Source: Ignavibacteria bacterium (GTDB taxonomy: Bacteria; Bacteroidota; Ignavibacteria; Tepidaquicellales; OLB5). Taken from it: a stretch of 64,000 nt of DNA. Location: NCBI GenBank assembly GCA_017303675.1, contig JAFLBX010000001.1, positions 941,970 through 1,005,969 on the forward strand. Reading direction: 5' to 3'. Numbering within the stretch: position 1 is the first letter of the stretch; every line of letters begins with the position of its first letter. Shown here in pieces: positions 6,803 to 11,951 of the stretch. A program made the translations under genes and the position numbers. The notes beneath the pieces were generated by a model, which was not told the DNA's origin, made no database searches, and worked only from the letters and a program-made list of their open reading frames with translations.

Positions 6803-8056
6803 TTATTCGGAAAAATCCTTACTTAAAAGGTTTTTGCTTTTGAAAAATATATAGGTTACAATTATCATTGTGGCCGCGCCGCCAAGAATCACAGAAGGAA
6901 CTGTACCCAGCAGCTTGGCAGCCAGGCCTGACTCAAATGCGCCGACCTCGTTTGATGTAGAAAGGAATATTCCGTTTATTGCATTTACCCTTCCGCGCAT
7001 GTTATCAGGAACAAGAAGCTGCAGCAGGGTTGAGCGGATAACGACACTGACGCTGTCAAATGCACCGGTAGCAAATAAAGCAGCAATAGATAAGATAAAA
7101 TTTTCTGATACCGCAAAAACCAGGGTTGAGACCCCGAAGCCAGCCACAGCCAGCAATAGATTGCGCCATGCGCGTTTCATAGGGGAGTACTTAGAAAGCA
7201 CAAAAAGCACCAGTACAGCACCTATCGAAGGCGCAGCGCGCATCACACCAAGTCCCTCAGGCCCGACTTTTAAGATATCTTCGGCAAATACAGGGAGTAT
7301 AGCAACAACACCACCGAACATAACAGAGAACATATCAAGAGATATGGAATAAAATATAATTTTGGTTTTGTATGTATAGCGGAAGCCTTCCCTGATCTTT
7401 TCAAGCATTGAGCCTTCTTCAGAGGGGTCCGGCGGACGGTTCTTAATTAAAGCAACTGCAGCAATTGAAAGAAAAATTATAGCTATAACAAAAAGCAGCG
7501 TTCCTGAAAAACCAAACAAGCTGTAAAGAAAACCTGAAACACCCGGGCCTATAATTACACCTGTTTGCCATGATGAAGAGCTCCACGTGGATGAATTGGC
7601 ATATACTTCCCTCGGCACCAGGTATGCCTTAATTGATGTTGATGCAGGAAAGAAGAACGCTTTACAGATCCCGATGAAAAATATAACTCCCCAAATTACA
7701 TACTTAAACTCCCCGGCATGTTCTTCTGTTAAAAGGCTGAATGAAAGTATATACAGCGCAATTGAAGCTGCCATTGTGAATGCAAGCGACCAAAGCATGA
7801 TATTTTTCTTTTTGAGCTTATCAGAGTAATGGCCGCCAAACAGCGAAAGCAGTATAAATGGTATGGCTTCTGCCAGACCTATCATGCCGATTGCAAGAGG
7901 GTCATGGGTAAGCCTGTAAAGCTCATATCCTATTATTACTTCCTGAATAAGAAGCCCAACGGTCATGAAAAAATTGGAAAATAAAAAATAACGGAACTCC
8001 GCGTACCGCAGAGCGAGGAAGGGATCTTGTTTTACAGGGGGCGGATTATTTTGCAT
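6803..8056 (-). CDS. MFS transporter (MFS_3 / EntS-like exporter)
   Basis: A 417-residue polytopic membrane protein with roughly twelve hydrophobic segments. The first, RYFLFSNFFMTVGLLIQEVIIGYELYRLT, and the loop GGHYSDKLKKKN (the MFS motif-A-like G-x-x-x-D-K/R-x-x-+-+ between TM2 and TM3) are characteristic of the enterobactin-exporter-like MFS_3 group. These proton-coupled carriers export siderophores, macrolides or related compounds; the substrate here is unknown. The gene stands alone, separated from the toxin-antitoxin pair by about 110 bp and from the AT-rich DUF262 gene by about 140 bp. Its base composition matches the housekeeping neighbours, not the DUF262 gene. Confidence 0.88.
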   Translation of the reverse strand: MQNNPPPVKQDPFLALRYAEFRYFLFSNFFMTVGLLIQEVIIGYELYRLTHDPLAIGMIGLAEAIPFILLSLFGGHYSDKLKKKNIMLWSLAFTMAASIALYILSFSLLTEEHAGEFKYVIWGVIFFIGICKAFFFPASTSIKAYLVPREVYANSSTWSSSSWQTGVIIGPGVSGFLYSLFGFSGTLLFVIAIIFLSIAAVALIKNRPPDPSEEGSMLEKIREGFRYTYKTKIIFYSISLDMFSVMFGGVVAILPVFAEDILKVGPEGLGVMRAAPSIGAVLVLFVLSKYSPMKRAWRNLLLAVAGFGVSTLVFAVSENFILSIAALFATGAFDSVSVVIRSTLLQLLVPDNMRGRVNAINGIFLSTSNEVGAFESGLAAKLLGTVPSVILGGAATMIIVTYIFFKSKNLLSKDFSE

Positions 8057-8195
8057 TTAAGTTATAAAAGCAAAATAGTTTTATAAGGAAATTTTTACAA
8101 GGAATAAAGAAAAAACCAGAGACAGATTATATTTTAAAATAATAAAAAAGCTATTTCGAAAGACTAAAAATAAGGAAAAATTAATTGCCTTCAAA

Positions 8196-10742
8196 TCAAG
8201 TAATTAATTTTTTCCCCTTTTTTCTATTACAATTTTTGTGAACTATTTGCAAATTTAAAAAACCATCTCTACCGCCAACCGCAAGTGGATTTATATGATC
8301 AACTTCAATATCATCACCATAGTAAAGTTCTCCACCACAAATAAAACACTTATTATTCTGTTTTTTTATTAATCTTTTTTTTTCATCCTCTTTTAAAAAT
8401 GTTTTTCTATCATTCTTTTTATATTTGTTCTTAAATGATTTGATTAATTCATGAAACTTACTAATTTTGTCACCATTTCTGGTAAAATTAAATATTTCTT
8501 TCAAATCATTTTTAATATCATTTCGATAAAAATTAATCATTTCTAAATTTAAATCATTAATTATATACCACAAAGTGTAAAAACTTTGAGTTGTCCTTTT
8601 ATTAGATTTGATATGAAATATTTTATTAAGTTCTGATTTTAAATATTCGTTCAATTCATCAATATCCTTATCGATTATAATGGCTTTTACTTTTTTAATG
8701 AACGATTCGATATTACCAACTGACCGAATAAATTTTTTCTTTTCAATGTCACTTAGAGAAACCAAGTTTAATAATTTAGTAATTTCCGATTTATCTTTAA
8801 TACGTAAATTTATATTATTTTCTCGTTGATAAATATTTAAAACTTTTTCTAAATCATGGTGTTCTTTGATGTATTCTAAAAATGATAGTGTAATATATGT
8901 TTCTTCATTATCCATTCTTTTATTGTAGTCTTCAGTACGAATATGAAACCAACTTGAATGTTTTTTTGTATTTGTCTTTACTTGACTAATAATTTCTTTA
9001 TCAATATAAGAATTCCACATCTCAAAGGAATTTTCTTTGATTGGATAAGGTTTATTGTTTAAGCGAATAAATAAATCTATATTGTCGAAGCTTGGATTTT
9101 GTTTTTCATCAATAAAAACTATTGGTATATTAAAATCTAATAATTTATCTTTAAATTCTGGAGCTATTTTTTCAAAAGGTAAACCTTCAAGTTCATTTAG
9201 GATTGTTAACTTATTTAATTTAAATTTATTTTTTTCTGATTTAACTCGATTACCATTTTCATCTAAAAATTCTTCACCTATAAAGCCAATAATTGATAAA
9301 AGTCTTTGTTGCCCATCAACTACCTCACAAATTCCATCTTTTCTTTTAAACACAAAAATTGGAGGTAATTTAATGCCAAGAATAATACTTTCTATTAATG
9401 CAGAGGATTTTATTTTATTAATTACTTCACCTCTTTGGTAAATAGGCCTTACTAGAAATCTATCTCTATTCATTAATCTACAGATATCTTCAATTGTATT
9501 TGTAGAGGGCTCAGGTTTATTTAGGCGTAAATTTTCTAATTTATCAAGAGCATCAATTCCTTTATTGCCTTTATTTATTTCACTAATTTTTTCCTGAAAC
9601 AAAGTGTAGTCATCCAGATAATATTTAAAAGAACAATCAAATTCTTTCTCAAAAAACCTTGCAACTTTTGTATAACGATCAATTACATTTTTATAAAAAT
9701 GACTATTTTCTGTTGAAAAAGAGACTTCATTATCAGATATAAAAGTAGAAAATTTTGAAATTAGTTTATTATCAATTTTTTCTAAGTTCACTTTTTCTTT
9801 TTCCAAAACTGTAAGCGCCCAAAAGAACACTTCATAGATTAACCGATTGTTGGATAATTCCTTATTTTTAAAAGAAAGCTTTAATTTATGGCATAAATCA
9901 AATTTAATTTCTAATTCTTTATAAAAATCTACTATATCTTCTAAATCTTCAACGAAAATCTCATAAAATTTAGATAGAAATTCATCTCTTCCATGTAAGA
10001 CCGAATATCTCTTTATTGGTATATTGTTTATAACTAATAGTTTACGAATTTTAGATAGGGTGTTTTCTAGAGCTATAGGTTTATTAATATTATCTTTTTC
10101 TTTTTCAGAGAACAATAATACTATAACTTTTTCATAGAATTTTCTATTTTTTCGAAATTGTTCTTTAATATGTTGAGTTAAATCATCATTAATATATATC
10201 GCTTTTTCAATTTCGGGTTTTTTTAGTGGAGTTATACCAGAATTGTATCTTCTAAAAATTTCTTTTTTAATTAAATCTTCCTTATTGTCATCAAGTTTAG
10301 GCTCATTAACTACACTAAATTCTATAAATCTTAATTTTGTATCCCAAAATATTTCTTTAATTCTTTTATCTAGATTGTCGAAATCTTTTTTTGCTAAAAA
10401 TTTTAATTGATATAAACCATTCTTTGTTAATTTAAATTCTTTATCTATAAAACGTTTTATGGTTTCATATCTTTGTCTTCCATCAATGATTTCAATTTTA
10501 GACCCATTATTGAACAAAACCAATGGAGGTATTTCAGTACCTAAAAGTATGCTTTCTACAAAATATGTACCTTTATTGTCGTCCCAAACATAATTTCTTT
10601 GATAATATGGATCATAAACAATTTTACTTTCTAATCTCTTATTAGCAAATAAAGCTTCAATAGATTTAACACCATTTTCAACTTTTAAATGATTCTTAAA
10701 TATTTCTTGAATTTGGCTATAATTAAGTTGTATTTCGGCCAT
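8196..10742 (-). CDS. Tandem DUF262 - DUF262 - HNH nuclease protein (GmrSD-like, putative defence)
   Basis: An 848-residue protein with two separate DUF262 (ParB/Srx-like) modules. The first has YDPYYQRNYVW (43-53), ESILLG (63-68) and IIDGRQR (85-91). The second has RPIYQRGEV (432-440), ESIILG (451-456) and VVDGQQR (474-480). The C-terminus is an HNH nuclease: Cys799-x2-Cys802, then VDHINPLAVGG (Asp815, His816), Asn830, His835 and Cys838. Family knowledge: DUF262 modules hydrolyse NTP in GmrS, BrxU and SspE, usually fused to a DUF1524 HNH. Here a McrA-like HNH and a doubled DUF262 are combined. The gene is far more AT-rich than its neighbours (15 G/C in the 60 bp from 9241, against 27 in the 60 bp from 13021), a sign of transfer. 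It has its own FCB-type promoter and no partner gene. A role in restricting phage or modified DNA is inferred. Confidence 0.9.
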   Translation of the reverse strand: MAEIQLNYSQIQEIFKNHLKVENGVKSIEALFANKRLESKIVYDPYYQRNYVWDDNKGTYFVESILLGTEIPPLVLFNNGSKIEIIDGRQRYETIKRFIDKEFKLTKNGLYQLKFLAKKDFDNLDKRIKEIFWDTKLRFIEFSVVNEPKLDDNKEDLIKKEIFRRYNSGITPLKKPEIEKAIYINDDLTQHIKEQFRKNRKFYEKVIVLLFSEKEKDNINKPIALENTLSKIRKLLVINNIPIKRYSVLHGRDEFLSKFYEIFVEDLEDIVDFYKELEIKFDLCHKLKLSFKNKELSNNRLIYEVFFWALTVLEKEKVNLEKIDNKLISKFSTFISDNEVSFSTENSHFYKNVIDRYTKVARFFEKEFDCSFKYYLDDYTLFQEKISEINKGNKGIDALDKLENLRLNKPEPSTNTIEDICRLMNRDRFLVRPIYQRGEVINKIKSSALIESIILGIKLPPIFVFKRKDGICEVVDGQQRLLSIIGFIGEEFLDENGNRVKSEKNKFKLNKLTILNELEGLPFEKIAPEFKDKLLDFNIPIVFIDEKQNPSFDNIDLFIRLNNKPYPIKENSFEMWNSYIDKEIISQVKTNTKKHSSWFHIRTEDYNKRMDNEETYITLSFLEYIKEHHDLEKVLNIYQRENNINLRIKDKSEITKLLNLVSLSDIEKKKFIRSVGNIESFIKKVKAIIIDKDIDELNEYLKSELNKIFHIKSNKRTTQSFYTLWYIINDLNLEMINFYRNDIKNDLKEIFNFTRNGDKISKFHELIKSFKNKYKKNDRKTFLKEDEKKRLIKKQNNKCFICGGELYYGDDIEVDHINPLAVGGRDGFLNLQIVHKNCNRKKGKKLIT

Positions 10743-10771
10743 AATGGTTAGATTTATTTATTAGTTATGTT

Positions 10772-10802
10772 CAAATATATATTTTAGTGTTTATCAAAGC
10801 AA
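10772..10802 (-). promoter_or_regulatory. FCB-type promoter for the DUF262-HNH gene
   Basis: On the reverse strand TTG (10800-10802) is followed after 20 nt by TATATTTG (10779-10772), a full match to the Bacteroidota TTG/TAnnTTTG consensus. It lies about 30 bp before the ATG and gives a short leader. Confidence 0.75.
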
Positions 10803-10910
10803 TGGGTTAATAATGTTTATTTCAAAAAAAGTAAATAAAGTAAGTTTTTTAATTTTACTATATTTCTGTTTGCATTTGTTTAGATATATTTAAAAAAAAT
10901 TAAAATTTAT

Positions 10911-11171
10911 TCACCCGATTTTACCGCCTGATGTCCTGTTCCATTTTTCCTTTACCTTGTTTATCAGCTTTTCATTTTTCAAATCTTCATCTCTTATGAA
11001 TTCTTTGAAATATCCGCAGTTTGTGCAGATATATGTAAATACTGTAAAGCTTTTTATTGCTGAAACATTTATAGCGGGCCTGTATCCCTGGATCAGTTTA
11101 TTGGTGTTGTCGTACACTTCATTTGATCCGCAAACGGGACACTTGCCGGTTTTGATGGTTTCTACGTTCAT
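10911..11171 (-). CDS. Small zinc-ribbon protein (86 aa)
   Basis: A short soluble protein with two cysteine knuckles, CPVC at residues 10-13 and CTNC near 50-53, separated by a stretch of beta-strand character (TVFTYICTNCGYFKEFI). It is a single treble-clef or ribbon-type zinc site with no recognisable enzyme domain. The layout resembles the other 80-aa zinc-ribbon protein in this window (next to prfA): both have CxxC near the start and the CxNCGY form in the second knuckle. The function is unknown. It is a single gene between the DUF262 gene and the hemerythrin gene, with ordinary base composition. Confidence 0.75.
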   Translation of the reverse strand: MNVETIKTGKCPVCGSNEVYDNTNKLIQGYRPAINVSAIKSFTVFTYICTNCGYFKEFIRDEDLKNEKLINKVKEKWNRTSGGKIG

Positions 11172-11288: not shown

Positions 11289-11951
11289 TCACTTTAGCTT
11301 CTCATTAATAGCAGTATATTCTTCAGCCGGCAGGAATTTTTCTGCCATAACCATAAGTCTTGTGAACTGCTCAGGTGCATTGGCTTTCATTCCCCCAAGC
11401 ATAACCAGAAGATCGTTTTGTGTAATTGCCGGCATAATGAAGCTCTGCCATTTTTCAAATGCTTCGGGTGTGAAGCGCCCGATAATTTTTCCGCGCATTG
11501 CATGCAATTCCTGGTCAGTGAAATTTTCCCAAAGCAGGCGCTGGGTTTCGGTCTCTTCTTCAACAGTGTGGAGCAGGTATTCGCCGTGGAATTTTGAGAA
11601 TTTAATATAAAGCTCAGCGCCTGAGCCGGATGCATCAGCGCCACGGGTGTTCAATTCCTTAATATCATCAAGCAGTTTTTCTATTGCATCCTGGTCCTGC
11701 TCAAGCCTCTTGTGGTCATCCATATCGTGTTTGGATGAACCCGGTATTTTTTCTTCAAGCGCTGCAAGGATAATGGAATTTTCATCGTTGGCATGTGAGC
11801 TCAGCATCATAAAAAGATCCTTGCCAAGCGAGTGCAGCTTAGTTATATCAACTGCATTGTTGAAGTCACATTTGCCCAGTAAAAACGAAAATTGTGAAAG
11901 CGCGCTTCTAAGTCCTTTATGAGCTGCTTCAAATAGTTTTACTCTCTGCAT
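11289..11951 (-). CDS. Hemerythrin-like domain protein
   Basis: A 220-residue protein whose first 145 residues form a hemerythrin four-helix bundle. Candidate di-iron ligands are His11, His53, Glu57, His75 or His80, His122, His128 and Glu131/132; the FHGEYLLHTVEEE motif is the diagnostic last helix pair. The C-terminal 70 residues (FTPEAFEKWQSFIMPAITQNDLLVMLGGMKANAPEQF) are a helical extension found in hemerythrin-domain proteins of Bacteroidota. Such proteins bind O2 or NO, or serve iron-sulfur repair. No signal peptide is present, so it is cytoplasmic. It is monocistronic, with repeats on both sides. Confidence 0.88.
   Translation of the reverse strand: MQRVKLFEAAHKGLRSALSQFSFLLGKCDFNNAVDITKLHSLGKDLFMMLSSHANDENSIILAALEEKIPGSSKHDMDDHKRLEQDQDAIEKLLDDIKELNTRGADASGSGAELYIKFSKFHGEYLLHTVEEETETQRLLWENFTDQELHAMRGKIIGRFTPEAFEKWQSFIMPAITQNDLLVMLGGMKANAPEQFTRLMVMAEKFLPAEEYTAINEKLK

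Follow-up and report, generated by a model that had tools for sequence, protein, structure and literature searches.

A single gene in an Ignavibacteria genome encodes two DUF262 domains and a C-terminal HNH nuclease in one chain, and among the relatives of its product the DUF262 pair is kept while the effector changes. We regard this protein as probably an anti-phage effector encoded by one horizontally acquired gene; its tandem DUF262 part would act as a switch for interchangeable effectors. The gene lies in the stretch of DNA analyzed here (the window), 64,000 nucleotides that correspond to positions 941970-1005969 of contig C1 in a 3.65 Mb genome; its features are listed in Table 1. The coding sequence begins 60 bp inside the start at 10802 that an earlier note on this DNA had given, which counted in a leader. 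A promoter of its own, also claimed there, was not borne out: matches to sigma-70-like sites, the one promoter type scanned, were rarer than in shuffled sequence (16 versus 22.7).

Table 1. Features of the tandem DUF262-HNH gene and its insertion site (window positions)
Feature	Position	Strand	Basis or remark
Tandem DUF262-HNH coding sequence, 848 aa	8196..10742	(-)	ORF, start ATG 10742
N-terminal half, residues 1-395	9558..10742	(-)	Profile scan, AlphaFold2, half-versus-half alignment
N-half GmrSD_N core, approximately residues 30-183	10194-10655	(-)	
N-half motifs YQR (residues 47-49), DGRQR (87-91), FxxxN (163-167)	10596-10604, 10470-10484, 10242-10256	(-)	
C-terminal half, residues 396-770, second GmrSD_N	8433..9557	(-)	Profile scan, fold matches, half-versus-half alignment
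C-half motifs YQR (residues 435-437), DGQQR (476-480), FxxxN (558-562)	9432-9440, 9303-9317, 9057-9071	(-)	
HNH nuclease domain, residues 799-845 (CxxC 799/802, DH 815-816, N830, H835, N839)	8208..8348	(-)	Pfam, fold matches, residue conservation
Segment missing from eight congeners, approximate insertion limits	8112..10909		DNA homology ends near 8111, restarts at 10910
Left flank, MFS-type transporter-like gene	6803..8056	(-)	In 13/13 genus genomes searched
Right flank, small Zn-ribbon protein gene	10911..11171	(-)	Kept in the eight compared congeners
Right flank, hemerythrin-like gene	11289..11951	(-)	In 10/13 genus genomes

Scanned alone, residues 1-395 and 396-770 each matched Pfam GmrSD_N (DUF262, PF03235), at 2.5e-19 (70.6 bits) and 2.7e-10 (41.2 bits), respectively, both above the curated Pfam cut-off of 33.2 bits. 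The protein thus has two full DUF262 motif sets about 390 residues apart, as the earlier note had read them, and homology between the halves is evident from BLASTP (42% over 66 aa, E 6e-12) and hhalign (probability 99%, E 1e-19). The last 78 residues alone matched HNH (PF01844, 4e-11), with the nuclease motif DHINP as against DHIYP, and no match to DUF1524/GmrSD_C (PF07510) was found in the protein at E ≤ 1, which bears out a C-terminal nuclease of a type other than DUF1524 and a stand-alone, HNH-fused architecture. An AlphaFold2 model built from 15 sequences (mean pLDDT 82) folds both halves confidently, and fold comparison of this model gave a ParB-like fold for both. With VIA-align, the first half matched ParB N-domains (Z about 6), the second half matched BrxU (7p9k, Z 7.9) and SspE (7drr, Z 7.3), and the tail matched the HNH domains of Cas9 and Gme (Z about 7); all these scores are modest, and the long alignments have a high rmsd. 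Matches of the whole model to BrxU and SspE were weak (Z 7-8, 11-12 Å rmsd; Foldseek E > 0.01).

We compared the protein with 20 relatives in an alignment of 21 rows (identity 38-53% where measured). These came from 15 genome contigs, one Priestia plasmid, one viral contig, and further genomes of the same phylum (L012/L015 are the same contigs as L039/L038), and they span Bacteroidota, Ignavibacteria, Cyanobacteria, Firmicutes, Pseudomonadota, and one P2-like provirus. The viral relative (L031) was found when viral contigs were searched with the family alignment; with the window protein alone as query, the viral contigs returned no relative, and the phage and plasmid collections gave partial DUF262 matches only, apart from the Priestia plasmid. 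Both DUF262 motif sets stand in one chain in 20 of the 21 rows, the exception being the protein of the Priestia megaterium plasmid (L025, 11965-13668, 567 aa), which is without the first DUF262 and keeps the second together with the HNH. A Brocadia copy (L024, 520-2541) holds several stop codons, is thus a decaying version of the gene, and was excluded from the tree. The Melioribacter-assigned relative (L012, 9260-12571, 1103 aa) has three N-terminal DUF4379 treble-clef zinc modules fused to DUF262-DUF262-HNH, and the truncated L011 probably carries the same fusion.

The two halves differ consistently at one site. The C-half motif is DGQQR in 21/21 rows. The corresponding N-half motif is DG(R/K)QR in 19 of the 20 rows that have the site: DGRQR in 17 and DGKQR in L011 and L012, with DRRQR in the Okeania protein (L020), so that the third position is R or K throughout (20/20). 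The other DUF262 proteins that we met carry DGQQR, DGLQR or, once, DGRQR, and the N-half variant is therefore not unique to these proteins. Judged from the alignment, the asymmetric pair of sites is a fixed trait of the tandem DUF262 family.

The effector is not fixed. The HNH stands at the C-terminus of 12 of the 21 members, and all 12 keep its DH, N, H, and N residues, although one or both zinc-knuckle cysteines are lost in seven of them; because the catalytic residues persist even without the zinc cysteines, catalysis is apparently under selection. The other nine members stop just before the HNH position, and each has a same-strand partner gene that overlaps it or lies no more than 14 bp away. 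Seven of these partners (L017, L018, L019, L021, L022, L023, and L031, with L022 94% identical to L017) are upstream genes for putAbiC proteins (PF16872) whose N-terminus has two hydrophobic helices; in PADLOC they matched AbiC/AbiP where tested. In L018 the AbiC gene is broken in its reading frame, and the split pieces were assigned via sequence similarity by eye. In these matches the partners resemble AbiC and AbiP, and they differ in that they lie directly upstream of, and are coupled to, a tandem DUF262 gene. The PDB held no sequence relatives of the AbiC partner, and a model of it (pLDDT 68) gave low, unspecific fold scores. In L036 the partner is a downstream PIN_8 protein (E 6e-66). In L010 it is an upstream gene (8475-9995) for a 506-aa protein with no Pfam or PADLOC match, and no HNH remnant was found behind the stop in three frames; this partner looks methyltransferase-like by eye only.

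We built an IQ-TREE tree without the HNH columns. The AbiC members formed a single clade (100/100), and L010 and L036 were placed inside the HNH-bearing part, so that the strongly supported branches force at least three effector changes. Taking alignment and tree together, the tandem DUF262 part is conserved and the effector is exchanged. No published description of such effector swapping, and no publication treating DUF262 together with AbiC or putAbiC, was found in the literature searched.

How do these proteins compare with known DUF262 systems? GmrSD and BrxU likewise couple, in one chain, a DUF262 with YQR, DGQQR, and FxxxN motifs to an HNH/His-Me nuclease. That motif set occurs twice in the window protein, the N-half with its DGRQR variant, but GmrSD and BrxU have one DUF262 and a DUF1524, whereas the window protein has two DUF262s and a PF01844 HNH; the exchange of effectors among its relatives sets it further apart. 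BrxU, whose two chains intertwine as a dimer, responds to nucleotide (PMC8565348), and the tandem chain may mimic such a dimer internally. In the phosphorothioate-sensing SspE, recognition by the DUF262 raises GTP hydrolysis, the molecule opens, and the HNH nickase becomes active (PMC9646914), and in both SspE and BrxU NTP turnover by the DUF262 is coupled to HNH activity (PMC9646914, PMC8565348). An NTPase DUF262 that switches on an HNH is thus the point of likeness with SspE, which differs in having one DUF262 and in acting with SspABCD. The PADLOC match of the window protein to SspE covered a 27-residue stretch only, and no Ssp match was found among the 58 other window proteins (E ≤ 1e-5).

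The best PADLOC profile for each half was NsnA (PDLC03877; 1.6e-28 and 3.3e-27), which we take to belong to Menshen. NsnA is a single DUF262 profile of 385 positions, whereas the window protein holds two DUF262s and an HNH. The Menshen DUF262 gene is associated with an OLD-type nuclease (review, PMC10952713); we found no OLD-type nuclease partner near the window gene and no match to further Nsn genes among the 58 other window proteins (E ≤ 1e-5). PD-T4-2_A also matched each half, more weakly than NsnA. In PD-T4-2, as in the HNH-less relatives, DUF262 and effector are separate proteins, but it has one DUF262 and a HEPN effector, whereas the tandem family has two DUF262s and putAbiC or PIN_8; in the window an adjacent HEPN partner is absent, the neighbors being the MFS, Zn-ribbon, and hemerythrin genes. 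GrwAB and TgvAB of Vibrio cholerae share the joint requirement for two DUF262s and the HNH nuclease. Defense by GrwAB depends on both DUF262 proteins and is lost on mutation of either one; neither DG-x-QR site can do without its arginine (PMC12137116). In these systems, however, the DUF262s lie in two proteins, one of them with a DUF1524, whereas here they lie in one chain without DUF1524. The contrast that the earlier note drew with known DUF262 systems was too narrow, since systems without DUF1524 (PD-T4-2, Menshen, and Dazbog; PMC10952713) and systems with two cooperating DUF262 proteins (GrwAB and TgvAB; PMC12137116) have been published.

These comparisons bear on the strongest alternative, a divergent Type IV (GmrSD/BrxU-like) restriction enzyme in which the DUF262s would read modified cytosines, the HNH would replace DUF1524, and the HNH-less relatives would be a separate matter. 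The shared DUF262-plus-HNH logic, the best whole-half structural matches (BrxU and SspE), and the modified-DNA sensing established for GmrSD, BrxU, and GrwAB (PMC8565348, PMC12137116) all speak for it. We nevertheless consider it unlikely, because DUF1524 is unmatched and because putAbiC and PIN_8 partners replace the HNH within the same family, which is hard to reconcile with a dedicated DNA cutter. Since relatives use a membrane putAbiC protein where the window protein has its HNH, a general switch describes the DUF262 pair better than a guide for a single nuclease does. Lacking DUF1524, the window protein stands outside GmrSD, BrxU, and SspE, and the best reading is that it would work like them without being a member.

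The earlier note had also taken the gene to be transferred, and the insertion site bears this out. In eight congeners with the flanks on one contig, the order MFS, Zn-ribbon, hemerythrin is kept without the DUF262 gene. The full-length tandem protein was absent from all 12 congeners searched, and of 391 class genomes 6 carry it (missing from about 98%). Its closest relative in the tree (L010, 53% identity) comes from a Firmicute MAG, outside the phylum of the window, and the 38-53% identity to members from other phyla fits horizontal transfer. Together these observations support horizontal acquisition as a single-gene insertion. Other species of the genus (L064, L068, L070, and L071) carry DUF433/DUF5615, RelE-like, or nucleotidyltransferase genes in this gap, which is therefore a small accessory-gene spot. 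The adjacent Zn-ribbon protein consists of two zinc ribbons, and it resembles the Lar restriction-alleviation family at a level below the cutoff (7.5e-06). Base composition, which had been offered as a sign of transfer, is less telling: the gene has 24-25% GC versus about 40% nearby, but every relative is likewise more AT-rich than its own flanks, so that low GC is in part a family trait, and we rejected it as sole proof of recent transfer.

A single HNH gene inserted cleanly between conserved genes, with patchy occurrence and no transposase signature, could also be a toxin-like or selfish, homing-type nuclease gene that spreads through HNH cuts at insertion sites and has no part in phage defense. 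No convincing direct or inverted repeats were found at the insertion edges. We consider this highly improbable, as relatives lie at unrelated sites, the DUF262 part is conserved even where the HNH has been lost or replaced, and members occur in a phage defense hotspot and with AbiC-like partners. The ParB-like fold of both halves might suggest a ParB/Srx-superfamily factor with a housekeeping task in DNA repair or chromosome maintenance; this is the least credible reading, already largely contradicted by absence from every congener and nearly all class genomes searched and by spread across phyla.

The cassette of L031 (AbiC plus tandem DUF262) lies between the portal gene and gpA of a P2-like provirus and has 29% GC versus 45% for the locus; none was present in the E. 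coli genomes searched. Rousset et al. (PMC9122126) tested anti-phage systems from this gpA-gpQ interval of P2-like phages, where old and tin reside, and showed it to be a hotspot. Elsewhere, a complete GmrSD gene is also found at L036, L010 adjoins TnsA- and TniB-like genes, a second DUF262 gene lies 69 bp upstream of the tandem gene in L035, a PemK/MazF-like gene lies downstream in L012, and a recombinase-like gene lies near L015. A 356-aa protein without a Pfam match is encoded directly downstream in L035 (6695-7765, minus strand), a possible three-gene system. The neighbors of L013, L016, L017, and L019, among others, are ordinary. PADLOC matched 164 families among the 125 proteins flanking relatives and 6 among the 58 window proteins, two unmatched sets compared without a statistic. 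The window itself is no defense island and holds no other strong defense gene, aside from a CopG-type antitoxin and BrnT toxin pair (PF12441, PF04365; 6132-6693, minus strand) beyond the MFS gene. The defense role proposed in the earlier note is an inference that the P2 hotspot, the tns genes, GmrSD, and the AbiC-like partners of several relatives support well; the ordinary neighborhoods of other relatives and that of the window gene speak against it.

For the reading that we favor, an anti-phage effector governed by a tandem DUF262 switch, we propose the following mechanism by analogy with the characterized systems. The two fused DUF262 modules, putative NTPases of the ParB/Srx fold, would pair up within the chain as a pseudo-dimer and detect a phage-associated signal; phage DNA carrying modifications, or DNA in some other state, is the probable cue. 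The canonical DGQQR site of the C-half would be the main place of nucleotide turnover, this turnover would switch on the tethered HNH, and the activated nuclease would then cut or nick DNA. Across the family, the tandem DUF262 part would be the constant sensor and switch, with HNH, membrane-anchored putAbiC, or PIN_8 as the interchangeable effector; abortive infection is the probable mode of action of the AbiC versions at least. We find it about evenly balanced whether these proteins make up a distinct, undescribed defense family, characterized by an asymmetric two-site NTPase switch (DG(R/K)QR plus DGQQR) that would plug into HNH, putAbiC, and PIN_8.

At issue is whether DUF262 in defense reads modified DNA to guide a single nuclease or serves more generally as a switch driven by nucleotides, and a family with two DUF262s and an exchanged effector separates these two ideas. 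The fixed difference between the N-half and C-half sites makes a division of labor between the halves testable through single point mutants. Should the AbiC-armed and HNH-armed versions answer the same phage cue, DUF262 would be a transferable sensor. If the tandem proteins do make up a distinct defense family with such a two-site switch, the known GmrSD logic would be a special case of a broader switching role of DUF262.
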